Positions 33,860-49,210 of a stretch of DNA of 49,844 nucleotides are shown in pieces. The stretch lies in NCBI GenBank assembly GCA_035517655.1, contig DATIYJ010000068.1, positions 1 to 49,844 on the forward strand, written 5' to 3'. This stretch comes from Nitrospiria bacterium (GTDB lineage: Bacteria; Nitrospirota; Nitrospiria; JACQBZ01). The notes beneath the pieces were generated by a model, which saw only the letters and a list, made by a program, of their open reading frames with translations, was not told the DNA's origin and did not search any database. How positions within the stretch are numbered: position 1 is the stretch's first letter; every line of letters starts with the position of its first letter. Position numbers and translations under genes: made by a program.

Positions 33860-35047
33860 ATGAAGGTGATCGGGTTGATTTCAGGGACTTCCACGGACGG
33901 CATTGACTCTGCCTTGGTGGAGATCGCCGGTCGGGGGCTGGAAAGCCGACTGAGGTTGCTCCGCTTTGCGACCTATCCTTATCCTCGCGCATTACGTGCC
34001 CGGCTCGTTCGCTTGACCCATGACGGCCGGGTCGAGGATCTCAGTCGTCTGAATGTCCATGTGGGAGAATTGTTTGCCAAGGCGGCGATACGGATCGCGC
34101 GGGAAGCCGGCATACCGTTGAACGAGATTGATCTGATCGGATCTCACGGGCAAACGATCTGTCATCAACCGGTTCCGTTCAAAGTAAGCGGAGCAAAAAT
34201 TCGTTCGACGCTCCAGATCGGCGAGCCGTCCATCATCGCCGAGCGAACCGGTGTGACTACCGTGGCCGATTTCCGTCATCGGGACATGGCGGCCGGCGGG
34301 GAAGGCGCGCCGCTGACACCCTATCTCCACTACATCCTTTTTCACCATGCGCAACGCCCGCGCCTCGTCGTCAACATCGGCGGGATCAGCAATCTCACCT
34401 ATTTGCCTTCCCAGGGCGGTCTCTCGGACATTGTGGCGTTCGACGCCGGCCCCGGTAATATGTTGATGGATGGCATCATCCAACACCGAACGAACGGTCA
34501 CAGGACGATGGACGGGGACGGGGCGCTGGCCCGGCGTGGGAAAGTCCATGAAAAGCTCATAAGCGAGTTGCTTCGGCATCCGTTTTTGAGTCGGAAGCCC
34601 CCGAAGACGACGGGGCGCGAGGCTTTTGGGCGAGCCATGATCCGGTGGTTAATCGGACGGGCCAACGGCTTGAAATTAAATCATCAGGATTTAATGGCTA
34701 CCGCAACGGCCTTTACAGCCCGGTCGATCGCCCAGGCGTACAAACGGTTCATTCTGCCCAGCGGGGGCGTCGAAGAAGTGATCGTTGGCGGTGGCGGGAC
34801 CCGAAACTCGACCTTGATGCAGTTTCTTCAGCAGGCCTTCGGCCCGGTTCCGGTTTTCACCTTTGAGAAGTTTGACCTGGACAGCCGAGCGCTTGAGGCG
34901 ATGGCTTTTGCCTTGTTCGCCTACGGGGCGATTCAGGGCGAGCCGAACAACGTTCCATCCGCCACCGGTGCCCGACGAGCGGTTGTGATGGGGAAAATCG
35001 TTCCCGGACGGCTTACATTCCCACTTTTTCCCGATACTCGTCCATAA
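33860..35047 (+). CDS. anmK: Anhydro-N-acetylmuramic acid kinase
   Basis: A 395-residue ASKHA-fold kinase: MKVIGLISGTSTDGIDSALVEI (phosphate loop; S-G-T-S-M/T-D-G-I-D), LIGSHGQTICHQP, IVAFDAGPGNMLMD and EVIVGGGGTRNSTLM are family signatures. It phosphorylates 1,6-anhydroMurNAc while opening the anhydro ring, recycling cell-wall sugar released by lytic transglycosylases such as the one at 19298-21688. The motif begins at residue 3, so the ATG at 33860 must be the start. Its 3' end overlaps the convergent PCP_red gene by 35 bp. Confidence 0.95.
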   Translation: MKVIGLISGTSTDGIDSALVEIAGRGLESRLRLLRFATYPYPRALRARLVRLTHDGRVEDLSRLNVHVGELFAKAAIRIAREAGIPLNEIDLIGSHGQTICHQPVPFKVSGAKIRSTLQIGEPSIIAERTGVTTVADFRHRDMAAGGEGAPLTPYLHYILFHHAQRPRLVVNIGGISNLTYLPSQGGLSDIVAFDAGPGNMLMDGIIQHRTNGHRTMDGDGALARRGKVHEKLISELLRHPFLSRKPPKTTGREAFGRAMIRWLIGRANGLKLNHQDLMATATAFTARSIAQAYKRFILPSGGVEEVIVGGGGTRNSTLMQFLQQAFGPVPVFTFEKFDLDSRALEAMAFALFAYGAIQGEPNNVPSATGARRAVVMGKIVPGRLTFPLFPDTRP

Positions 35048-35528
35048 CCCGGTCATTCACTTCCGTAAACCCATTCTCTCTCGCATACTGCTCGATGCCG
35101 GCCCGGGCCAGAGTCCGGACGAAGGACGGAACGTTTTGAAGCCGCTGTTCGGCATTCGATGTCCACGGAACGGACGCTTTGGAGTCCTGTCCGGACAGGC
35201 CGGCCGCGATTCCGGTGTCTTTGAACCCCGATCCGGCCAGCATGCCCGGGAAGGGACATTTGCCCATATCGGCCGTCATCGTCGCGGTGGGCTGGCCCTC
35301 CGGCTTGATGGCCTCGCGGGTGAATTCCATCGGCTCGGCCGGAACGGTGCGGCCGCCGATCTTGACGCCCAGCCCGCTGACCAGCTGCGTCTCGCCCGGA
35401 TTCGTAACCATTGCGACTTTGTATCCGCATTGCGTGCAGGCAAAGGTAATGCCGAGGCGGAGCGTGTCCACCTGCTCCTTGGATTCGTAATCCATAAAGT
35501 TGTTGCATTTGATGCACAGAAATTTCAT
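35013..35528 (-). CDS. Zinc-ribbon protein with PCP_red domain
   Basis: A 171-residue protein. N-terminus: CIKCNNFMDYESKEQVDTLRLGITFACTQCGYKVAMVTNPGE, a four-cysteine ribbon (C-x-x-C...C-x-x-C). C-terminus: VPWTSNAEQRLQNVPSFVRTLARAGIEQYARENGFTEVNDRVMDEYREKVGM, matching the domain found at the end of light-independent protochlorophyllide reductase ChlB/BchB (PCP_red, W-x-x-x-A-x-x-R-L-x-x-V-P-x-F-V-R). No chlorophyll genes are near, so here it is an accessory domain. It overlaps the mrp stop (ATGA). A role with Mrp in iron-sulfur or metal delivery is inference. Confidence 0.8.
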   Translation of the reverse strand: MKFLCIKCNNFMDYESKEQVDTLRLGITFACTQCGYKVAMVTNPGETQLVSGLGVKIGGRTVPAEPMEFTREAIKPEGQPTATMTADMGKCPFPGMLAGSGFKDTGIAAGLSGQDSKASVPWTSNAEQRLQNVPSFVRTLARAGIEQYARENGFTEVNDRVMDEYREKVGM

Positions 35529-36475
35529 GACGTTCTCCTTGATTCGATATGCTGTTGTAACGAATCGGTGATGATCCGGAAGGCCTGCGCGGCCGGCGTG
35601 AGCGCGTGTTCGTCTATAAACGAGCGGCCGTGATCCGCACAGCTTGCGATCCGTCGGTCAAACGGCACCCGGCCCAATAGTGGAAGGCCCATTTTCTGAA
35701 GCGGACTTTCCCCGTGGGACGCGTCTTCAAAAAGTTCCAGCGCCTCGCCGCAATGCGGGCAGATCGCGCCGCTCATGTTCTCGATCAGTCCGATGATGGG
35801 GATATGAAGCTCCCGGTTCAGAAACACGACCGATTTTTTGACGATAAATTGTGAAATTTCGGAAGGGATCGTCACGATCACCGCGCCGTCCAGGTCCGGA
35901 ATCATCTGAGCGATGATCGGCGGTTTGTCGGAGGAGGCCGGGGGCATGTCGATCAGCAGGAGGTCCAGAGGCCCCCAATTCACGTCGCTGATGAATTCGC
36001 GGATGACGCTCATCTCGACCGTCCCGCGCCAGACGGCAGAATCTTCCCAGAGGCCTTTCCACATTACGGGGCTGCCTTCGCTGGGCAGCATCAATTCCAT
36101 TGAGGCGACCTTGATCCCGTTGACGCCGACGGCGGGCTGGGCTCCTTCGGGTGTGATCTTGAGCGCCCGCTCGCGAACGCCCATCATCTTCGGGATGCAT
36201 GGTCCGCTTAAGTCCACATCCAAGATGCCGACTTTGTAGCCGCGCGAGGCAAAGCTGTTGGCGAGATTGACCGTCACGGAACTCTTGCCGACCCCGCCCT
36301 TCCCGCTCATGACCGCGATCTTGTGTTTGATCCGGCCCATCCGTGTCTGAACGGCCGCGACCTGTTCCATAACTTGTTGAACAATGGGATTAACCACCTT
36401 GGTCTTCTTTTGCTGCTCTTCCAAGTCTTTGACCATCTCGGTGATGGTCCGACCCTCTGATCCTTCTTGCTTCAT
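35525..36475 (-). CDS. Mrp/NBP35-type iron-sulfur carrier ATPase
   Basis: A 316-residue P-loop protein: KIAVMSGKGGVGKSSVTVNLANSFASRGYKVGILDVDLSGP is the deviant Walker A with its switch region, LLLIDMPPASSDKPPI follows, and ENMSGAICPHCGEALELF carries the C-x-x-C that binds a bridging Fe-S cluster. A ~40-residue N-terminal helical lead (ITEMVKDLEEQQKK...) replaces the DUF59 domain of longer Mrp proteins. The ATG at 36475 has GGAGA upstream. It delivers Fe-S clusters to target enzymes; nearby Fe-S proteins (AprB, sulfite reductase, the SufR-like regulator) are plausible clients. Confidence 0.9.
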   Translation of the reverse strand: MKQEGSEGRTITEMVKDLEEQQKKTKVVNPIVQQVMEQVAAVQTRMGRIKHKIAVMSGKGGVGKSSVTVNLANSFASRGYKVGILDVDLSGPCIPKMMGVRERALKITPEGAQPAVGVNGIKVASMELMLPSEGSPVMWKGLWEDSAVWRGTVEMSVIREFISDVNWGPLDLLLIDMPPASSDKPPIIAQMIPDLDGAVIVTIPSEISQFIVKKSVVFLNRELHIPIIGLIENMSGAICPHCGEALELFEDASHGESPLQKMGLPLLGRVPFDRRIASCADHGRSFIDEHALTPAAQAFRIITDSLQQHIESRRTS

Positions 36476-36499
36476 GGCGATTCTCCAAAAAGAGAGTTT

Positions 36500-36529
36500 A
36501 CTATATGTCACAAGGGTTAAAGTTGTCAA
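36500..36529 (-). promoter_or_regulatory. sigma70-type promoter of the mrp-PCP_red operon
   Basis: TTGACA (36529-36524), 18-nt spacer, TATAGT (36505-36500). A second TTGACA lies just upstream (about 36540-36535). Confidence 0.6.
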
Positions 36530-36549: not shown

Positions 36550-37230
36550 CTATAGGAAGGTGATACGATCCAGGGCTTCCATAAGCAAATAGCGGGCATC
36601 CAGAGAGCGCCTCGCCCCTTCCCGGACAAAGGCCTGATGTTCGGGAGATTCCAGTTCCGGTCGTATTGCCGCCTCCATCAGGCTTGAGTGGATCTCATCG
36701 ATGGGCATGTGTTCGAGGAAAAACTCCAATGCGTCATCGGATATCCCGTGAAGTCGAAAACCAGGGACAAGTTTTTCGTATAAAAACGGGATCGGATATT
36801 CCATCGCCAAACCTACAACCCCCAGTCCTACGTGAAAATCGTAATCCTGGCAAAGACGCAAATGGACATCCCGATAGGCCTCAAATTCAGGTAGAGGGGT
36901 TACCGTGTTCCAGTCGTGTTCCTGAAGGTCCAAGGCGCACAAAAATTTTCGGAACTGGGCTGGGTGTGTTCTTTCCGGATTGCCGCGACCGTATTCATCC
37001 CAGAGAATCGAGGCGAGGGCGGCCTGGATCGCTTCTGAAGGCGTGCGCGCCAACACCATAGCATCGTAAAGGCGGGTCTGCAATACATGGAGGTAATAAT
37101 GAAGAGAGAATCGTTTAAGGCCCTCCATCGTAAACGCACCCTTCTCAAACCGATTCCAAAAACGGTGCGTCATCACAGGGTGGGTCAAAATCTCTTCCTT
37201 TATCGTTTTCAAAAAAACATCTGTCTCCAT
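36550..37230 (-). CDS. TENA/PqqC-like, haem-oxygenase-fold diiron protein
   Basis: A 226-residue all-helical protein: FLKTIKEEILTHPVMTHRFWNRFEKGAFTMEGLKRFSLHYYLHVLQTRLYDAMVL, then ASILWDEYGRGNPERTHPAQFRKFL, then HMPIDEIHSSLMEAAI. The pattern W-D-E-x-G-x-G-x-x-x-x-x-H is typical of the iron-containing redox enzyme group within the haem-oxygenase-like diiron oxidase fold. Family members cleave or oxidise small molecules with a diiron site; the substrate here is unknown. The ATG at 37230 is preferred over TTG 37266. It is divergent from the SufR-like regulator with shared promoter DNA. Confidence 0.75.
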   Translation of the reverse strand: METDVFLKTIKEEILTHPVMTHRFWNRFEKGAFTMEGLKRFSLHYYLHVLQTRLYDAMVLARTPSEAIQAALASILWDEYGRGNPERTHPAQFRKFLCALDLQEHDWNTVTPLPEFEAYRDVHLRLCQDYDFHVGLGVVGLAMEYPIPFLYEKLVPGFRLHGISDDALEFFLEHMPIDEIHSSLMEAAIRPELESPEHQAFVREGARRSLDARYLLMEALDRITFL

Positions 37231-37271
37231 TGTCGCCCACCCCGTTTCATGAAGTAATTTGATCAATAAGT

Positions 37272-37285
37272 ACAGTATTTACTGT
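37272..37285. promoter_or_regulatory. Palindromic operator candidate ACAGTA-TT-TACTGT
   Basis: A perfect 6+2+6 palindrome 9 bp upstream of the -35 box of the regulator gene and just downstream of the TENA-like gene's -10 box. A dimeric HTH protein such as the adjacent regulator would fit. A further ACTGT half-site lies at about 37290. Confidence 0.5.
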
Positions 37286-37294
37286 TAAAACTGT

Positions 37295-37328
37295 TTGACA
37301 TTATAGACAGCGCTATGTTATGAGTCAA
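37295..37328. promoter_or_regulatory. Face-to-face overlapping divergent promoters
   Basis: Plus strand: TTGACA (37295-37300), 17 nt, TTATGA (37318-37323). Minus strand: TTGACT (37328-37323), 17 nt, perfect TATAAT (37305-37300). The two promoters occupy the same 34 bp, so only one polymerase can bind at a time. The centre contains AGCGCT. Confidence 0.65.
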
Positions 37329-37346
37329 CAAAAAATGGAGTGATAC

Positions 37347-38045
37347 ATGCAAGGTAATCTATTAAAAACCAGCAAGGCTTTGGCGGATGAGACGCGCTTT
37401 GCGATTATTCAATATATGGAAAGAAAGCATCGAGCGGTTTCGATCAAGGAACTGGCCCAACGTTTTCATCTTCATCCCAGCGCAATCCGCCAACACCTCT
37501 CAAAGTTATCGGAAGCCCAGTTGGTTTCATCCATTGCCATGAAGACGGGCGTCTCGGGCCGACCCCGGCGTGTGTACCGGAAGGTCCGGCCCGTAGTCGG
37601 ACTCGAACTGCTTCCGCGAGACTACCGCCTGCTCTCTGAAATGCTTTTGGGTCTGTTGGCGCTCAAGGGGGTGTCTCCGGATGAAATTAAGACTTTTGGA
37701 CGGCAATGGGGTGAGGGCCTTGCAAAGAAATTATCCGGCGGGCAGACGGTCGAACGGTCGGCCGAAACAATCGCTCGATTTTTAGCGGATCAGTTTGGGG
37801 CTTGGGGTTTTGAACCCCGGGTTGAAGGGGCGGCTGGCCAGCAAGTGAAGATCCAACTGCATAATTGCATCTTCAAAGAGGTTGTGGAGTTCAACCCGGA
37901 AATCGTCTGCCCGCTCTTGCACGGGGTGCTGGAAGGATTACTGACCCCGTTCGTCGGGCCGTACAGGTCATCCTTGCAAAACGGCATCGCGCATGGGGAG
38001 GAATCCTGTCTTGTCCATGTGCAACTTAAACCCGCCGCCGTTTAA
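37347..38045 (+). CDS. SufR-like HTH regulator with probable Fe-S site
   Basis: A 232-residue regulator. N-terminal winged helix: [73 protein letters not shown]-terminal sensor: [33 protein letters not shown]...[12 protein letters not shown], the arrangement of three conserved cysteines (HNC, VC, SC) seen in SufR-type proteins that hold an Fe-S cluster. It would switch DNA binding with Fe-S or oxidative status. GGAG lies 6 nt before the ATG. Its stop overlaps that of sat on the other strand. Likely targets are itself and the divergent diiron gene. Confidence 0.8.
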
Positions 38046-39220
38046 CGCCCGCTCTTCATCGCTTCGATCAGGATCTTGGCCACTTCGGGACGTGAGAATT
38101 CGGGCGGGGGTGGAATTCCGGCTCGGAGCATCTCACGAACCTTCGTGCCGGAAAGACTGATATGTTCGGTTTTATCATGAGGACAAGTTTTGACCGAAGC
38201 CATGCTCCCGCAGGCCTTGCAATAAAAAGTGTTGTCGAAAAAGAGCGGCGTAATGCCCAGTTCTCCGGGGGCAAATTCGTTGAAGATATGGTGGGCGTCA
38301 AACGAGCCGTAGAAACTGCCGACGCCGGCATGATCGCGTCCGACGATGAAATGGGTGCAGCCGTAGTTTTTCCGGACGATCGCATGATGAATCGCCTCCC
38401 GGGGGCCGGCATATCGCATCGGCGCGGGAAGCACCGAGAGCACGACGCGGTCCTTGGGATAATACTTCTCCAATAATACCTCGTAGCATTTCATTCGAAC
38501 ATCCGCTGGAATGTCGTCGCTCTTCGTCTCGCCGATCAGGGGGTGGAGCAGAAGCCCGTCCACGATCTCCAGCGCACATTTTTGGATATATTCATGGGCC
38601 CGGTGAACCGGGTTACGGGTTTGGAAACCGACAACGGTTTTCCAACCGCGGTCTTTGAAAATTTGGCGGGTCTCGAGCGGTGTGAGACGGTAGGGGAGAA
38701 ACTCGCGGTTATCCGGCAACTGCAGCACGCTGATCTTACCTCCCAACAGCACATCTCCGCGTTTGTAAAGAATATCGACGCCCGGATGCTCGGGGCTGTC
38801 GGTTCCGTAGACCGCTTTTGCGGCGACTTTTTTGTCGTGATCGAATTTTTCCTCAAGATGCAAGATCGCCAGGACGGCTTGGCGTTCGTCCGTTAGAGCG
38901 ATTTCCTGACCTTCGCGGATCGACGCGGCCGTTTTATGATCAACCCGGAAGGTGATCGGAATGCTCCAGGGAAGTCCGCTCGATAAGCGCATCTCGGCGA
39001 CGACGCGTTCATAATCCTTCCGACCCATGTAGCCTTCGAGCGGACTGTAAGCGCCCACGGCGAGCATTTCCAGGTCGCATAGTTTACGCCGTGTGAGCGG
39101 AATTTTTTTCATCTCATTCGCCTTATTGATCAGTCGCTCACGTTCGGCTCCCCGAACAATGCGGTCGATCAAGCGGCCACCGTGCGCCGGGATTTCTTCA
39201 TGGGGCGTGTTCGTCGTCAT
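38042..39220 (-). CDS. sat: Sulfate adenylyltransferase (ATP sulfurylase)
   Basis: A 392-residue homo-oligomer type Sat: [19 protein letters not shown] (Q-T-R-N-P-x-H-x-x-H), [15 protein letters not shown] (G-R-D-H-A-G), the zinc motif [16 protein letters not shown] and [15 protein letters not shown]. It makes APS from sulfate and ATP or runs in reverse. The enzyme is of the kind found in dissimilatory and archaeal pathways, not CysDN. GGAGA precedes the ATG. It is the last gene of the sulfur operon, 13 bp after the sulfite reductase fusion. Confidence 0.96.
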
Positions 39221-39233
39221 TTGATTCTCCGAT

Positions 39234-41660
39234 TTAGAAAACTTTTTCTACCAGAAGACGGTAATGGTGATCGTCCGCTTTCTCTTGGGACAGAATTTTC
39301 TGCCCGTCGCCCAGGAGACTCTTCGGAACGTTTCGAATCGGCTCACCCTCGTCCAGAATCACCTCGAGTCGCTGACCGATCTCCAACTCCTCCAGTTTCA
39401 GCTTGGTTTTCACATAATTGATCGGGCAGGCGACGCCGCTCAGGTCGAGCAGGACGGCCGGAACCGTTTTCGCCGGCGCTTTCTCGGCAGGTCGCCCGGC
39501 CGCCTCCGGTGCTACGGCAGCGGCATGGGTCTTCCCTTGTTTAAGCGTGCGGCCGTGCTTGTCGAAGGCCGAATGACTGGCCTCGACAAACGATTTGGCA
39601 TAAGCGATCTTTTCTTGTGTAAATTCCACCGTGGGCGACTTCGGTCCAAGATCCTTGACCTGATCGGTCAGGCGGGCAAACGTCCTGGGCAGGATTTCTT
39701 TTCCAACCAGTAGCGTTTCGGCTTTGAATAGAATCTCGGAATCAATGGAGGAATCGATTCCTTCCAGGACCAAAAGACCCTTCGCGGCGGCCACAATCGC
39801 TCGATAAGCCTTGTTCACTGCATGTCCGGTCTGTCCCTTTTCGACCATGACGCTAGCCAAATGAAGCTCCTGATCGGCCTCGAAAAGGAAGCCCTCCATC
39901 ATTTCGTAGGCCCCTCCGGCGCATTCGCCCGGGCCTAGATCCTCCGTTGTAAAATCCTTTTCATCCCCCCAATCGACGTAGAAGCTGCGATCCTCTTGGT
40001 AGGCCGGAAGGAACGTGAAGGGCATCAGCCTTTCTTTGAGGTTGTCTTTGCCTATACGCCGCACGAACCGTTCGAAAGTCTCGCCCCCTTGTCGGTCGGT
40101 TCGATACCACTGGACCAGGTGTTTGACCGCGTCCAAAATCCGCTTGGCCGGGATTTTTAAGACCTGCAACCCGATCTGTGTATGCGACCCTCCGAGATGC
40201 AATTCATAGAAAGGCGCGGTGTGACCACCCACCTTTTTTCCAACACCTTGAAAACCGATCGAGGCCAGTTGGTGCTGCGCACAGGCATTCTGACAGCCGG
40301 AAACCTTTAGCGACATTCCGGCGAGATCATCGTTGACCGGATCCCCCGGTGGAAACGGACCGGACAGGGCCCGCGCCAGACCTTTGGACGATGTGATCGA
40401 AAGGCCGCAGGAATCCGTTCCGGGACAAGAGACGATGTTCTCGATCCGATCCGATCCGGCCTCGGCCAGTCCGGTCTTCACCAAGGCATCGTGCACGGCC
40501 GGGAGATCGGCTTCATGGACCCAACGCATCGCGAAGTTCTGCTGGACCGTGACCCGAATGTATCCGTCAGAGAACCGCTCACAGATGTCCGCCACGGCGC
40601 GAAGCGGGGCGCTCTTGATGTCCCCCAGTGGAATCTTGATCGTGACGAGGTTGTAACCCGGTTGCTTTTGCCGCAAGACATTGTACTTCAACCAGGTCGC
40701 AAACGGACCGGCCGCCATTTCCCGATTCCAGGCTCGGGGAGAGGCCGGTTGCTTTAACGGGACCTCTTCAATTGCCGGAAGAGTGTAGTGGCCGTTTTGC
40801 GACTTAACCAGATCGAGTTCGGTCTTCCAGAGCTGATAGAATTTTTCAAACCCCAGCTTTTCAACCAGGAACTTCATGCGGGCCTTGTACCGGTTCTGAC
40901 GCTGGCCGTGTCGGTCGAAGACTCGGATGATCGCTTCGCAGATCGCGACCAGGTCTTCGGGCGGCGCGAACTCGTCCAGAACGTTTGCCGTCCGCGGCGT
41001 AGAGCCCAGCCCGCCTCCCACCACGATGCGAAAGCGCAGTTGTCCGTCTCGCTTCCGGGCCGTGACCCCAATATCATGCACTGCGGTGGCGGCGTGATCC
41101 TGGTCGGTGCAGCCCTCAAGGGCGATCTTGAATTTCCGAGGCAGCTTCTGACAGATCGGATTACGCAGAAAGTGTTGTGTGATCGCAAGCCCGTACGGGG
41201 TGACATCCACCACTTCGGTGGGGCTGATGCCGGCCATCGGACAGGCTGTGACGTTGCGGACGGTATCGGCGCAGGCCTCGCGCGTCGTCAGTCCGACCTC
41301 GGCGATCAGCCGCATCATGGTCGAGACGCTTTCGATCATGGCGAAGTGCATCTGGATGTTCTGGCGAGTGGAAAGATGGCAGACACCGGAAGCATAGGTC
41401 TCGGCCACGTCCGCCAACCGCCTCAGCTGTGCCGGGTTCAGTCGTCCCAGTGGAATCTTGACCCGGAACATCTGAACGCCCGGTTGCCGTTGCCCATACA
41501 CCCCGTGCTGCAGACGAAACGGCTTGAATTGATCCGCCGTGATCTCGCCCCGTTTCAGACGGGCGACTTCGCCTTCGAAGATCTCGATCTCTTTCAAAAC
41601 CTCGGCTGGGATCTTGGAAAGATCCACAGTCAATTTCTGTGGAGAGATTGTTGTTCCCAT
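39234..41660 (-). CDS. Siroheme sulfite/nitrite reductase fused to HEPN-like and TusA domains
   Basis: An 808-residue fusion. Residues ~1-545 form a complete NirA/SirA-type reductase with two ferrite-like repeats ([51 protein letters not shown]) and [4Fe-4S]-siroheme ligands Cys412, Cys418 (SCPGTDSC) and Cys456, Cys460 (GCQNAC). Residues ~575-660 form a HEPN-like helical bundle ([37 protein letters not shown]). Residues ~735-808 are TusA-like ([38 protein letters not shown]) with Cys745 in C-P-I-N. Reduction of sulfite with direct hand-over of sulfide sulfur to TusA is inferred. The ATG at 41660 follows GGAGG. Confidence 0.92.
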
Positions 41661-41699
41661 GATGCTACCTCCCATCCGTTCATCCCCAAAAGGATCGAA

Positions 41700-42080
41700 T
41701 CAAATCGAAAAATCGGGCGGTCCTGATCCTTCGACCTTTTCATCTAACGCAACCGGGAGGACCTTGGTCGGAATGGTAAAGGTCTCTTTATGGCCGCGGC
41801 TGTCGACCGCTTCCCATGTGATCACGTTCTGTGTGGTATGCACATGTGGCTGGAGGCTCGCGTTGGGAAAGCCCAGTTGGAATGAGAGCCGGAACAGAAT
41901 GGCCTCTTCCGGGCAGGCCTTCACGCAGGCAAGACAATCCCAGCAGTCCTGATACTTGAGATAAGCCTTGTTCGTTCCTAGGTCCTTCACGATAAGGTCG
42001 CCCGGGCACATTCGAACACAGGGTGGTTGAACAGAATTTCCGCAGCCGTCACATTTTACTGGGTCAACAATAACAGGCAT
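41700..42080 (-). CDS. aprB: APS reductase beta subunit, ferredoxin-like
   Basis: A 126-residue protein with two [4Fe-4S] motifs: VKCDGCGNSVQPPCVRMCPGDLI and YQDCWDCLACVKACPEEAI. The beta-rich tail ITWEAVDSRGHKETFTIPTKV is as in AprB, where it wraps AprA. It passes electrons to the FAD of AprA. AAGGA precedes the ATG, 29 bp after aprA. Confidence 0.93.
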   Translation of the reverse strand: MPVIVDPVKCDGCGNSVQPPCVRMCPGDLIVKDLGTNKAYLKYQDCWDCLACVKACPEEAILFRLSFQLGFPNASLQPHVHTTQNVITWEAVDSRGHKETFTIPTKVLPVALDEKVEGSGPPDFSI

Positions 42081-42109
42081 AAAGCATCCTTATCTAATCA
42101 GTCGGTCTT

Positions 42110-43873
42110 TTAGGGTTTGTATCGGTCTCCTGGAACCAATTGTTCATACGGTCGTTCAAGCATCGTAATGGCTCCCGTATTTGGATTCCGTCGGGAGTTG
42201 ACAAACTTCAACCAGTTTTGATCATCTCGCTCCGCATAGTCCATCCGGGTCTGATAGGCTGGCCAGCGGGTTTCTCGTCTATGGAGCAGGTGTTCGACCA
42301 AAACTTGTGCCACATCGATCCGGTCCAAGATTTCATGAACCTTCATCAGATCATGGAGTTCTTCGGCAACGAGGAGGTCCAGCTGATTCGGGAGTTGGGC
42401 AAGGTGTTTTCGTGCCACAAGGAGCTGCGCCTCGTTCATTTCGTAATATCGAGAAGCACCCCCGGCGTATTCCTCCATGATTTTTTGCAGTCTCGACTCT
42501 ACCTCGTCGGCCCGGATCCCGGCAAAAATTCTGCCATGCTGATGCAGCGGCTGAAAGACCCGTCCCTGCTCACGGTTGATCCAGTCGTCATCGGGCTCGG
42601 CCCGCTGAACTTGGTCGACGTACTTTCCCGCCGCACGGGCCGCGATGACCCCTTCGGCCCAACAACCGCTGACGAACTTGAACGGCGCGCCTCCGGCGAC
42701 ATCCCCGGCGGCATAAAGTCCTTCTAGGGTTGTTCGACGATCGATATCGATCCAATAACCGGCCTGACAATGTCCCCCGACGATATAGGGTTCGGTCAAC
42801 TGAACTTCAACCGGTTCTTTGCTCGGGTCAATATCGTTCGAAAGCCAGTAGAGAACCTGGGAGGGATACATATCTAGAAAGGCGGCCTTCAGATTCTTAA
42901 CCTGTTCGTCGTTGATATGACGTGTGTCTAGATAAACCGGTCCCCGCCCCTCTTTTAACTCCATGATGGGTCCGTAAGCCCGATACGGCGTTGGTGCGCT
43001 GTCGCCACCCAAATGGGTGTAGCGCGTCGCCATGAATTTTTCGCCTTTGCCATTGATTTGGGGCGCGTTGACCCCGAGGGCGATCGTGCCGGTCGGCGCG
43101 ATGGCATCCTTGGTCCTCAAAGCGATGTAGCGCATTTCAAAGCTGGTCATCTCGGCCCCGGCACGAATCCCCATGGCGTAACCGGCCCCGGTGTTGTAGG
43201 GAGAGTACCAGGTCTTATGTTGAGCATCATGGGTGTTGTTGGGTCGGTAAAGACCCGCGGCGCCACCGGTGGCCACGATCACGGCCTTTGCCTTTATAAT
43301 ATAAAATTTGCCGTTGCGGATGCTGAAGCCGGTGGCGCCGATAATGCGTCGTTCCCGGCGTAAAAAATTTGTTGCAACCGTCCAGTTTAATATCTGGACG
43401 CCAGCGTCCCGGACCGCTTTGGCCAGGATGGGTTTTAAGGATTCGCCGTTAATTTTGATATTCCATCGTCCACGGGGAAGGTAGTTGCCTTTTTCATCGC
43501 TCAGAATCGGCAGACCCCACCGCTCGACTTTTTTGACGCAATATTCGAACAACTCCGACTGACTCTTAACCAAATCCTCGCGGATCAGGCCGCAGGAATC
43601 AAATCGCACATACTTTACGAAACTCTCCGGTGTCTCTCCCGGATTCAGATAGGCATTGATGGCGTTCATCCCGCCGGCCAGACACCCGCTTCGGTCGATA
43701 TGGGCTTTTTCCAAGATCGTTACTTTAAGATGCGGATATCGTTCACGTAGCTCGGTGGCAGCGAGGCAACCGGCCGTTCCGCCGCCGATAATGAGGACAT
43801 CGGTTTCCACCGTCTGTCGATTGACGGTATGCCCGAGGCTGACTTTTGGCGCGGAAGAGAACTCTCTATTCAT
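42110..43873 (-). CDS. aprA: APS reductase alpha subunit, FAD-binding
   Basis: A 587-residue flavoprotein: TDVLIIGGGTAGCLAATELRERYPHLKVTILEKAHIDRSGCLAGGMNAINAYL (FAD Rossmann), VRFDSCGLIREDLVKSQSELFEYC, FEMRYIALRTKD and PYIVGGHCQAGYWIDIDRRTTLEGLYAAGDVAGGAPFKFVSGCWAEG. The Arg and His in the latter motifs correspond to APS-binding residues of the family. It is shorter than the ~660 residues of typical sulfate-reducer AprA. It interconverts APS and sulfite plus AMP. No qmoABC or aprM follows. The gene lies 14 bp after the TSUP transporter. Confidence 0.94.
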   Translation of the reverse strand: MNREFSSAPKVSLGHTVNRQTVETDVLIIGGGTAGCLAATELRERYPHLKVTILEKAHIDRSGCLAGGMNAINAYLNPGETPESFVKYVRFDSCGLIREDLVKSQSELFEYCVKKVERWGLPILSDEKGNYLPRGRWNIKINGESLKPILAKAVRDAGVQILNWTVATNFLRRERRIIGATGFSIRNGKFYIIKAKAVIVATGGAAGLYRPNNTHDAQHKTWYSPYNTGAGYAMGIRAGAEMTSFEMRYIALRTKDAIAPTGTIALGVNAPQINGKGEKFMATRYTHLGGDSAPTPYRAYGPIMELKEGRGPVYLDTRHINDEQVKNLKAAFLDMYPSQVLYWLSNDIDPSKEPVEVQLTEPYIVGGHCQAGYWIDIDRRTTLEGLYAAGDVAGGAPFKFVSGCWAEGVIAARAAGKYVDQVQRAEPDDDWINREQGRVFQPLHQHGRIFAGIRADEVESRLQKIMEEYAGGASRYYEMNEAQLLVARKHLAQLPNQLDLLVAEELHDLMKVHEILDRIDVAQVLVEHLLHRRETRWPAYQTRMDYAERDDQNWLKFVNSRRNPNTGAITMLERPYEQLVPGDRYKP

Positions 43874-43887
43874 GCGATCACCCCAAT

Positions 43888-44757
43888 CTAAACGGTTTTC
43901 ACCTTCTGGGATTGATAGAGTTTACCTTTTGTGAAAAATTGATAGAGAAGAAACGTGTCAACAGCGATGACAAAGCACCAGAGCAGATACGCCGATGGAC
44001 TGGTTACCAGATTAAGCTCGATTAAAACTCTGGAAAGTCCGAACCCAACGACCCAGGCGTCAAAGCTCATGCAAAGTCTCCGGAAGGTTTCCGGATTAAG
44101 CCGGTGGATTACAAAAGCGCCCAGAGGAACGCCGATCAAAACACTCGGCGCGATCGATACAAAGATCCCCCCGCTTTGAACGCTGTATAGACCCAGGAAG
44201 TAGTACGCACTCGCGGTAAGCAGAGCTTCGGTTACACGGATGAGACCCAGAGCCGCCCGGAATTCTTCTTTCACAAGGCCTTGGTTGTTGAACATGAGGG
44301 CCAGCGGAGGGCCCGAAACGGTGGTGACGGAATAAAGAAAACCGACACCGGTACCGAAAGGTAGGCCCACGGCCTGTTCGGAATTGATGGGCTTGCGCAC
44401 GCCGGCTGCTTGAGAGAGAATTAAAGGGAGAAGAACGGCGAAGGTCGTGAATTTGATCCAGCCGGGATGTACGTACGACAGGACATAACTGCCGAAGATG
44501 ATGCCAGGTACCATCCCGATCAGGATGGGGATGACACGTCTCCAAACCTTCGACAGGCCTTTCCGGTTAATCAGTAAGATGTAACTGTTAATGAAGATTT
44601 CGACCAAAACCAGGGCAGGGTTCAAAATCCGATTGGTATAGAACAGTAGCGCGACCGGTACGGTGATGGACGAAAAACCATGCCCCAGCCCTCCGTTGAC
44701 GAATGCGGCAAAAAGAGTGATCGATATCAGTATAATCAAGTCCGACTGGGTGCTCAT
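43888..44757 (-). CDS. TSUP (TauE/SafE) family transporter
   Basis: A 289-residue protein with about eight membrane helices in two repeats, starting LIILISITLFAAFVNGGLGHGFSSITVPVALLFYTN and with GLPFGTGVGFLYSVTTVSGPPLALMFNNQGLVKEEFRA, the TSUP motifs. Members export sulfite or organosulfonates, or import sulfate or sulfite. Its place between the Rrf2 regulator and aprA points to a sulfur oxyanion substrate; the direction of transport is not visible. Confidence 0.88.
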   Translation of the reverse strand: MSTQSDLIILISITLFAAFVNGGLGHGFSSITVPVALLFYTNRILNPALVLVEIFINSYILLINRKGLSKVWRRVIPILIGMVPGIIFGSYVLSYVHPGWIKFTTFAVLLPLILSQAAGVRKPINSEQAVGLPFGTGVGFLYSVTTVSGPPLALMFNNQGLVKEEFRAALGLIRVTEALLTASAYYFLGLYSVQSGGIFVSIAPSVLIGVPLGAFVIHRLNPETFRRLCMSFDAWVVGFGLSRVLIELNLVTSPSAYLLWCFVIAVDTFLLYQFFTKGKLYQSQKVKTV

Positions 44758-44775
44758 CGCTTCACAAAACTCGCA

Positions 44776-45237
44776 TCATATATGGTACATCAAAACTTTC
44801 TGTCGTTCCCTTTCCTGCTTTCGTTCACATAGATTTTGTATCGTAATGGAATCCAGAACCTCCATCACGGCCGTTCGAGCTTCTTCCCAAATTGGTTTTA
44901 GAATATCATCACCGCTGTCCATTCCCTCATACGGTCGGTAACGGTCGGCGTTTCCGGACGCGCGGTTGGATGGATTAATCGGACCTTCAATCGCTTCTAA
45001 AACATCGCTAATTCGAATCTCGGAGGGCGGCCGGCTCAATGAATATCCGCCTTGTGCACCCCGCACACTTTCAATTAGACCGGCTTTTCGAAGGCTGCTT
45101 AAAACCTGTTCCAAAAAGCGAAGCGGGATCCGCTGGTTCTTCGCGATTGTCTTAGCTTGGAAAGGAGTTTCTTGCGCATGGTTGGCCAGTTCAAATACAG
45201 CCAATACCCCATATTCTCCCTTTGCTGAAAAGCGCAC
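44776..45237 (-). CDS. Rrf2-family regulator, CymR-like
   Basis: A 153-residue Rrf2 protein: MRFSAKGEYGVLAVFELANHAQETPFQAKTIAKNQRIPLRFLEQVLSSLRKAGLIESVRGAQGGYSLSRPPSEIRISDVLEAIEGP. The IscR/NsrR cluster cysteines are absent from the region after EAIEGP (only a late Cys in NLCER), so it resembles CymR, which senses cysteine status through CysK. A GTG start at 45237 has AAAGGTGGG upstream and is preferred to TTG 45258. It is the first gene of the sulfur operon, 18 bp before TSUP, so autoregulation of all six genes is likely. Confidence 0.85.
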   Translation of the reverse strand: MRFSAKGEYGVLAVFELANHAQETPFQAKTIAKNQRIPLRFLEQVLSSLRKAGLIESVRGAQGGYSLSRPPSEIRISDVLEAIEGPINPSNRASGNADRYRPYEGMDSGDDILKPIWEEARTAVMEVLDSITIQNLCERKQERERQKVLMYHI

Positions 45238-45270
45238 AATTCCCACCTTTCCGATCAAATTTATGTATTA

Positions 45271-47691: not shown

Positions 47692-49167
47692 TTAACGCAA
47701 ATGATTCAGAGCACGAAGCAAGGCCTCAGCCTTGTAAAGAGTTTCTCCATATTCGCGTTCAGGTTCCGAATCGGCGACAATGCCGCCCCCAACCTGGATA
47801 TAAGCGCGGTTATTTTTAATCACAAACGTCCTGATAATCAGATTGAGGTCCATTTCATTCGCAAAGCTGATGTATCCGAAGGAGCCTGTATACGGACCTC
47901 GCACCACCGGCTCCAATTCCTCGATGATCTCCATGCAACGGATCTTGGGCACGCCAGTAATGGTTCCGCCCGGAAAGACGGATCGGATGACATCGAGAAG
48001 ATGCGTGCCGGGTGAAAGGGTCCCCCGGATATTGGAAACGATGTGCATTACATGTGAGTAACGTTCGGCTACCATGAACTCATCGACTTGGACGCTTCCG
48101 TAACGACAGACTTTGCCAAGATCATTCCGCTCAAGATCAACCAGCATTAGATGCTCCGCCCGCTCTTTCGCACTGGAAAAAAGCTCCGTGCGCATAGCCC
48201 GGTCTTCGTCGGAGGTTTTCCCTCGGGGTCGAGTGCCTGCGATCGGTCGAGTTTCAAGAAAGTCGCCTTGCCGCCGGATAAGACGCTCGGGAGAGGCACT
48301 AACCAGATAAAGGTCTTCCATGTGGAGAAAGCCAGCAAAAGGAGAGGGGTTGATTTTGCGCAGGACTTTATACAACAACCAAGGGTCCTGATCAAAGGAA
48401 GCCGAAAAGCGCTGTGAAAGATTGGCCTGATATATGTCACCCGCGGCGATGTATTCTTTGCATCGCAGAACCATTTTAATGTATTGTTCCTTCGTGAAGT
48501 TCGAATCTGGACGACCCGCCGGAGTCGAACGGCGTTTGGAAAAACGACATTGGATTGGACCTGTCAGTTTTTCCTCAATCTGTGAAATCTTCCATAGGCC
48601 CTTTTCCAGCAGGGTCTTCCGGTCCGTGTTCACAACATGACTTTTAGGAGGTGTGTAAATAATCTGGATGGTTTTTTGCTCATGATCGAAAGCGATGACG
48701 GTATCCGTGAACATGAGCAAAAGATCCGGCCAACCGGGGTGCTCCAGACTTAGCCGAGGAAGTTTTTCAAACAAACGGACGAGGTCGTAACTGAAGAACC
48801 CGACGGCACCCCCAGGAAAACAGGGTAATCCCTCCGACCGGGGTACCCAAAAGTCATCAAGCAGGGTTTTCAGAATCGTTAACGGAGACTCTTGGATGAC
48901 TTGACGAGAACCTGACCGATGAATCTCTGCCTGCAGACCCTTCGTCCTCAAAACGAGGAAAGGCTCACCTCCTACAAATGAATAGCGTGCGGTTGTCTTC
49001 GATCCCTTCACGCTTTCCAACAGGAAACTATACGGACCGGTTGCGATGCGTTCGTATGCTGCAACCGGTGTTATGGTATTCCAAGATACCTTTTTAATCA
49101 GTGAACCGGGAAGGGGATTGTTTAGAAAGCGTTCTCTGGTATGGATATCCATTGGAAGAGGTTTCAT
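47692..49167 (-). CDS. Anthranilate / aminodeoxychorismate synthase component I
   Basis: A 491-residue chorismate-utilising enzyme: KEYIAAGDIYQANLSQRFSA, ETRPIAGTRPRGKTSDEDRAMRTELFSSAKERAEHLMLVDLERNDLGKVC, VDEFMVAERYSHVMHIVSNIRGTLSPG and FPGGTITGVPKIRCMEIIEELEP. The P-I-A-G-T motif (Ala, not the Lys of E. coli PabB) and N-terminal FLLESVKGSKTTARYSFVG (an L-L-E-S motif as in tryptophan-inhibited TrpE) point to TrpE, whereas the downstream PabC-like gene points to PabB. No glutamine amidotransferase partner gene is adjacent. The ATG at 49167 has GGGA 6 nt upstream. Confidence 0.88.
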   Translation of the reverse strand: MKPLPMDIHTRERFLNNPLPGSLIKKVSWNTITPVAAYERIATGPYSFLLESVKGSKTTARYSFVGGEPFLVLRTKGLQAEIHRSGSRQVIQESPLTILKTLLDDFWVPRSEGLPCFPGGAVGFFSYDLVRLFEKLPRLSLEHPGWPDLLLMFTDTVIAFDHEQKTIQIIYTPPKSHVVNTDRKTLLEKGLWKISQIEEKLTGPIQCRFSKRRSTPAGRPDSNFTKEQYIKMVLRCKEYIAAGDIYQANLSQRFSASFDQDPWLLYKVLRKINPSPFAGFLHMEDLYLVSASPERLIRRQGDFLETRPIAGTRPRGKTSDEDRAMRTELFSSAKERAEHLMLVDLERNDLGKVCRYGSVQVDEFMVAERYSHVMHIVSNIRGTLSPGTHLLDVIRSVFPGGTITGVPKIRCMEIIEELEPVVRGPYTGSFGYISFANEMDLNLIIRTFVIKNNRAYIQVGGGIVADSEPEREYGETLYKAEALLRALNHLR

Positions 49168-49210
49168 TAGTTTTCCCAATCGTGAAATGTTGCCGTGTCA
49201 AACGGGTTTC

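Follow-up and report, generated by a model that had tools for sequence, protein, structure and literature searches.

Among the known oxygen- or Fe-S-sensing switches, SufR and MsvR come closest to the locus studied here. For SufR, the cysteine triad C203-x12-C216-x27-C244 of the M. tuberculosis protein (Rv1460) is reported to be needed for function, and the Synechocystis protein, whose gene lies divergent from its target sufBCDS, is described as a repressor and autoregulator (PMC6034842). MsvR is described as an ArsR-type HTH joined to a V4R domain, with conserved cysteines C206, C232 and C240 (spaced x25 and x7), and cysteines modulate its redox-dependent binding; in Methanothermobacter its gene is divergent, with overlapping promoters, from the oxidative-stress operon fpaA with an O2-reducing F420H2 oxidase, and its site is the inverted repeat TTCGTA-N4-TACGAA, with three binding boxes (PMC3729527). 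Regarding the enzymes, the heme-oxygenase-like diiron oxidases UndA, BesC, SznF, HrmI and CADD are reported to hold their metals by 3-His/3-carboxylate ligands (PMC13108848). As for promoter architecture, the bidirectional promoters of E. coli are reported to be single stretches of DNA which bind RNA polymerase both ways, one event excluding the other, with competition arising only where one of the two directions is highly active (PMC12825309).

Here we analyse a pair of divergent genes in a Nitrospiria genome, namely a SufR-like regulator (REG) and a heme-oxygenase-like diiron oxidase (HDO), which face each other across two interlocked promoters. A first-pass annotation of this locus, made from the sequence alone, knew of no described system with such a pair. 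As regards the arrangement this is too strong, since in MsvR/fpaA a V4R regulator is already described as divergent, via overlapping promoters, from the operon of an O2-reducing enzyme (PMC3729527). For the REG/HDO pair itself, nothing was found in the literature on SufR, on heme-oxygenase-like diiron proteins, or on protochlorophyllide reductase, Mrp or iron-sulfur in Nitrospira.

Results

The window analysed, a stretch of 49,844 bp, is one contig of a 2.65-Mb genome (G000). REG (37347-38045, + strand) encodes a regulator of 232 aa, characterized by Pfam, profile models, fold match and cysteines, and HDO (36550-37230, - strand) encodes a TENA-like protein of 226 aa, assigned from Pfam, ligand columns and HDO relatives in the PDB; aligned relatives put the HDO start codon at 37230, which corrects the region given in the first-pass annotation. 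The pair is flanked on one side by Mrp and a PCP_red protein and on the other by a sulfate-assimilation operon. The gene 3' of HDO (35525-36484, - strand) encodes an Mrp/ApbC-type P-loop Fe-S carrier (Pfam ParA/NUBPL, 1.3e-77) that scores 276 bits with the MrpORP model, below the cut-off of 450, and overlaps by 4 bp the gene of a CxxC-containing protein with a PCP_red domain (35013-35528, - strand; Pfam PCP_red, 8.8e-14). On the other side the ends of REG and sat overlap by 4 bp as well. The sulfate-assimilation operon (38042-45258, - strand) comprises an Rrf2-type regulator, TauE, an APS-reductase-type AprA and AprB, a sulfite-reductase-type/TusA fusion and sat; its Rrf2-type regulator is closest to CymR (119 vs 195 bits), and the product of 39234-41675 is a sulfite/nitrite-reductase-type protein with a TusA sulfurtransferase domain at its C-terminus.

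Between the two genes, two opposed sigma-70-type promoters together span only 34 bp, 37295-37328. The HDO promoter (TTGACT-17-TATAAT; 37300-37328, - strand) has its -35 at 37328-37323 and its -10 at 37305-37300, and agrees with the consensus at 11/12 positions, while the REG promoter (TTGACA-18-TATGAG; 37295-37324, + strand), with its -35 at 37295-37300 and its -10 at 37319-37324, agrees at 10/12. Each promoter's -35 runs into the opposing -10, sharing 1 bp with it at one end (37300) and 2 bp at the other (37323-37324), and the elements of both are kept in the related genomes G005 and G006. The first-pass annotation had described exactly this, two divergent promoters within one 34-bp stretch with each -35 touching the other's -10, and this is confirmed. 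It had also called both promoters near consensus, which fits the HDO promoter and is slightly generous for the REG promoter, where the -10 is without its final T, so that a pattern scan requiring that T did not list it. This final T is usually critical; the REG promoter has an extended -10, with TG at 37316-37317. When 37231-37346 was shuffled 5000 times with its dinucleotides preserved, no shuffle (0/5000) gave two opposed, overlapping promoters that each reached 10/12 or better, by a criterion chosen after the site was seen, and in the whole window the REG/HDO promoters are the sole pair that satisfies it. The overlap is not chance. As to the exclusive promoter use that the first-pass annotation thought likely, the geometry does forbid simultaneous binding, but for competition between the bidirectional promoters of E. 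coli strong activity in one direction is reported to be required (PMC12825309).

Conservation was surveyed in seven genomes of the window family (G000-G006). HDO is present in four of them (G000, G004, G005 and G006) and REG in three (G000, G005 and G006), always facing HDO. The intergenic region of these three contains a conserved 67-bp regulatory block (37263-37329) with 59 of 67 positions identical in all; compared with the window, the block is identical at 64/67 positions in G005 and 61/67 in G006. Within the alignment the promoter stretch 37295-37328 is identical at 34/34 and 33/34 positions, respectively, and the stretch 37263-37285 at 21/23 and 20/23, whereas the 29 bp at 37234-37262 agree at 13/29 and 8/29, and identity is only 49-68% at fourfold-degenerate sites in HDO, Mrp and REG. 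As a separate observation, 13 bp are inserted into the REG leader of G005 (L007:1026-1154); they duplicate some of the promoter region and create another TTGACT, which lies upstream of the HDO promoter.

Beside the promoters, at 37272-37285, lies the perfect 14-bp palindrome ACAGTATTTACTGT (ACAGTA-TT-TACTGT), exactly as first annotated, which by sequence and alignment is the putative operator of REG. It ends 9 bp before the REG -35; with start sites inferred from the hexamers, about 7 nt beyond each -10, it spans approximately positions +9 to +22 in the HDO transcript, its centre being near -52 of the REG start. Since palindromes with 6-bp arms and a loop of at most 2 occur in 484 of 5000 dinucleotide shuffles, this one is significant only through its conservation. 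Its core TACAGTNNNNACTGTTA is found exactly and once each in the REG-bearing genomes G000, G005 and G006, every one of which has the adjoining HDO, and not at all in G001-G004, the four genomes without REG. The site therefore goes with the regulator, and the question raised in the first-pass annotation, whether relatives conserve pair and palindrome, can be answered positively for all three genomes that have REG. In G000 no other site lies within one mismatch of the palindrome, and matches to TACAGTNNNNACTGTTA at up to two mismatches are rarer than those to the reversed control pattern (9 vs 38 in G000). A wider REG regulon was considered and rejected, a second exact TACAGTNNNNACTGTTA being absent from all seven family genomes; control by REG looks local, as far as such sites indicate it. 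A direct repeat ACTGTTAAAACTGT adjoining the palindrome was also dropped, being kept neither in G005 nor in G006.

In G004, regulator and site seem to have gone together, with HDO retained. HDO comes directly after sat there, with about 70 bp between them, and this gap, once reverse-complemented, can be aligned to the REG 3' end, where its codons give GEEFCSVNVQLKPSVS-stop, apparently the last 16 of REG; the remnant was recognized by local alignment and by codons read by eye, and blastn-short gave no match there. The simplest account would be that REG was deleted along with the promoters and the palindrome, after which HDO stood within the sat operon. In G001, G002 and G003 there is no HDO, no REG and, by blastn-short, no trace of them at the locus. 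Where the window has REG and HDO, G002 (L066:5384-6030) has a DUF433/DUF5615 pair, which we take to be toxin-antitoxin-like and which adjoins what looks, read by eye, like a second copy of part of the sat 3' end.

In REG, residues 12-62 constitute an ArsR-type winged helix (Pfam HTH_20, 4.2e-10; HTH_5, 1.8e-7), and the C-terminal part has no clear Pfam domain; the V4R Pfam model does not match REG and matches two of four outside homologues marginally. A single-sequence AlphaFold2 model (mean pLDDT 59) finds its best C-terminal matches in Bet3/TRAPPC3 (Z up to 11.2; residues 90-229, 135 residues, rmsd 3.3), with further matches to H-NOX, to MopR with o-cresol and to an M. jannaschii V4R (vinyl-4-reductase)-family protein at Z of about 7-8, so that a Bet3/V4R-like C-terminal domain may be taken as a lead only. 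The Bet3/V4R fold serves thiol sensing in MsvR and aromatic sensing in MopR. REG has exactly three cysteines, Cys174-x13-Cys188-x32-Cys221, which fall into the alignment columns of the SufR C-x12-C-x27-C triad, the longer spacing arising through insertions; the likeness to SufR that was first noted for these conserved cysteines is thereby borne out. All 11 covering rows keep the three columns (REG, its G005 orthologue and nine outside homologues), a tally which leaves out L092, with no usable open frame, and L004, where the contig ends before the cysteines; the G006 contig ends inside REG, and hence the triad is seen in two of the three family genomes. An extra cysteine seven residues before the last one occurs in 8/9 outside homologues, and neither in REG (Gly213) nor in the G005 orthologue.

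REG scores 28 bits with the SufR model TIGR02702, not reaching the cut-off of 178.8, and 24.5 bits with the MsvR model (cut-off 220); the SufR model gives 74-95 bits to each of the four outside homologues tested. In none of 21 genomes is the SufR cut-off passed, and REG is the sole match in G000 at E <= 0.001. It does not stand beside suf genes, its neighbours being HDO and sat, and has one exact site in the genome. On these profile scores and cysteine columns, REG is SufR-like and not SufR. Homologues at E <= 1e-6 occur in 11/295 genomes of the phylum, its own genome included, and among 12 loci outside the window with REG or a homologue, HDO is nearby in only the two family ones.

HDO matches Pfam Haem_oxygenas_2 with 3.9e-32 and 111.9 bits, against a gathering score of 28.9. 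The six ligands of the 3-His/3-carboxylate set are E79, H89, E144, H174, D178 and H181, in columns kept by 25-27 of the 27 rows, which comprise the window and those 26 of 29 loci that aligned, one of them a fragment; the structure prediction (pLDDT 40.5) was too poor for use. With the full ligand set kept, the first assignment of the partner to the diiron-fold oxidases is confirmed at this level, and HDO is, by its sequence, a member of the heme-oxygenase-like diiron oxidase/oxygenase superfamily, for which iron binding and O2 activation are predicted.

A separate promoter precedes Mrp (TTGACA-18-TATAGT, 11/12; 36500-36529, - strand) and is present in 7/7 family genomes. Because Mrp has this conserved promoter of its own, REG most likely governs HDO alone. 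The idea that REG rules all of the HDO-Mrp-PCP_red operon, and hence Fe-S delivery, is weakened by the same promoter; its conservation speaks against control of the Fe-S carrier by REG, and any Fe-S link of REG control would be indirect. Outside the family, the genes occur in the order Mrp, CxxC/PCP_red protein and HDO on one strand in 11/11 fetched Nitrospiria loci with HDO (L072-L082), a part of the 33/58 genomes with an HDO match; unlike this order, HDO comes before Mrp in the window family. A REG homologue was found at none of these 11 loci, and therefore HDO appears widely tied to Mrp and the PCP_red protein, with the regulator a local addition. Near the cassette of L073 lie genes of an AhbD/NirJ2-like radical SAM/SPASM protein with a C-terminal PCP_red domain (L073:385-1704) and of a protein with four PCP_red stretches (L073:3633-4559); these PCP_red proteins are hinting at tetrapyrrole chemistry.

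Discussion

We propose that REG is dedicated to HDO and represses it from a single site, the palindrome, by a cysteine-based (Fe-S or thiol) mechanism, a reading that we hold to be somewhat probable; the either-or behaviour of the two promoters, which may accompany it, we hold less probable than the repressor itself. REG would sense redox or Fe-S status via the three cysteines of its Bet3/V4R-like domain. In the binding state, presumably cluster-bound or reduced, a dimer bound to the palindrome, about +9 to +22 within the HDO unit, would overlap the RNA-polymerase footprint and shut the HDO promoter. The core promoter of REG begins just past the palindrome and would stay open, and might even be favoured once the competition for the 34 bp ends; silencing one promoter may help the other because the polymerase cannot occupy both at once. 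Under oxidative or iron stress, loss of the cluster or oxidation of the thiols would release REG from the DNA, and the stronger HDO promoter would take the shared DNA, so that HDO is made and REG synthesis drops. We infer the binding of REG to the palindrome and its effect there as repression rather than activation; the signal sensed, the reverse response of the REG promoter and the reaction of HDO are put forward conditionally in the same way.

A variant with the same sensor, possible though on balance rather unlikely, would have REG repress both promoters from the palindrome and so regulate itself, the overlap merely compacting the region with no opposite regulation. It has precedents, in that Synechocystis SufR is described as repressing its target and itself, and MthMsvR as repressing fpaA and msvR (PMC6034842, PMC3729527), and a dimer bound 9 bp upstream of the REG -35 could still hinder the polymerase. 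However, a palindrome centred near -52 is outside the core promoter of REG, yet inside the initial transcribed region of HDO, and this position speaks against the variant.

Less likely still, REG would be a small-molecule sensor whose Bet3/V4R-like pocket binds the substrate or product of HDO, the cysteines holding a structural metal, e.g. zinc, and HDO being substrate-induced. Such an account would suit the fold matches of the REG model to MopR with o-cresol and to the M. jannaschii vinyl-4-reductase-family protein (Z of about 7), as well as the layout of one enzyme with its own regulator and a single exact site in the genome, which is usual for substrate induction. It agrees poorly with the retention of the SufR-type triad in 11/11 covering rows, and with the four outside homologues tested, all of which reach 74-95 bits with the SufR model while their V4R matches are only marginal; moreover, the fold matches come from a model with a pLDDT of 59.

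That REG activates HDO, or itself, seems improbable. Activators can touch the polymerase from positions near -52, and the site, centred there with respect to the REG start, is near such positions; but the 11/12 promoter of HDO would need no activator, and a site downstream of the HDO start is the position of a repressor. Finally, the identity of HDO as a self-sacrificing p-aminobenzoate synthase of CADD/NePabS type, which the best solved relative (4-aminobenzoate synthase, 9pj4, E 1.3e-11) and 69 bits with the CADD model TIGR04305 could suggest, is rejected as very improbable, because the score is far below the cut-off of 200, the sacrificial Tyr and the Lys donor align with Trp25 and Leu154 of HDO, and a chorismate-based route seems present in the pabB-type gene 47695-49179 (333 vs 328 bits cut-off) and the adjoining gene of a PabC-like class IV aminotransferase.

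Returning to the proposed repressor, REG/HDO offers a compact and testable case of two full promoters not occupiable at once, together with one cysteine-bearing regulator. If REG is an Fe-S sensor, SufR-type control would reach past cluster assembly to an O2-using enzyme. The locus also draws attention to an uncharacterised diiron oxidase which, in many Nitrospiria, accompanies a PCP_red protein and an Fe-S carrier; some members of this class are nitrite oxidisers. This Mrp-PCP_red-HDO module may be a more interesting question than the REG switch. A speculative and rather doubtful extension would be that the module, class-wide in Nitrospiria, serves to make or repair an O2-sensitive cofactor of Fe-S or tetrapyrrole type, that HDO either consumes O2 in this process or oxidises an intermediate of it, and that in the window family HDO moved beside sulfate reduction under its own SufR-like sensor, the interlocked promoters serving as an either-or switch. 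If this were true, there would be no earlier case, as far as the literature searched goes, of an HDO controlled directly through cysteines or Fe-S, nor of an interlocked promoter pair that a SufR-like protein reads.

Compared with the known systems, the arrangement resembles oxygen- or Fe-S-sensing switches with another enzyme under control. REG/HDO shares with MsvR/fpaA the ArsR-type HTH, the divergent, overlapping promoters, an inverted-repeat site and the place of the regulator next to the gene of an enzyme known (there) or predicted (here) to use O2, but the promoters there are archaeal, the enzyme is of another class and there are three binding boxes; in addition, REG has no cysteine seven residues before Cys221 and fails the MsvR cysteine pattern. 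With SufR it shares the winged helix, the three-cysteine C-terminal motif and the divergent placement beside the presumably controlled gene, whereas REG is below the SufR cut-off, has longer cysteine spacers and faces HDO instead of suf genes. SufR and MsvR, as these systems are described, repress both divergent promoters, whereas REG is proposed to repress one only, a difference that counts against the proposal. The characterised HDOs belong to natural-product or folate routes, whereas the window HDO stands beside Mrp, a PCP_red protein and sulfate-assimilation genes. Lastly, while the E. coli bidirectional promoters share a single -10, REG and HDO have two full promoters, with a -35 laid over a -10 at both ends.
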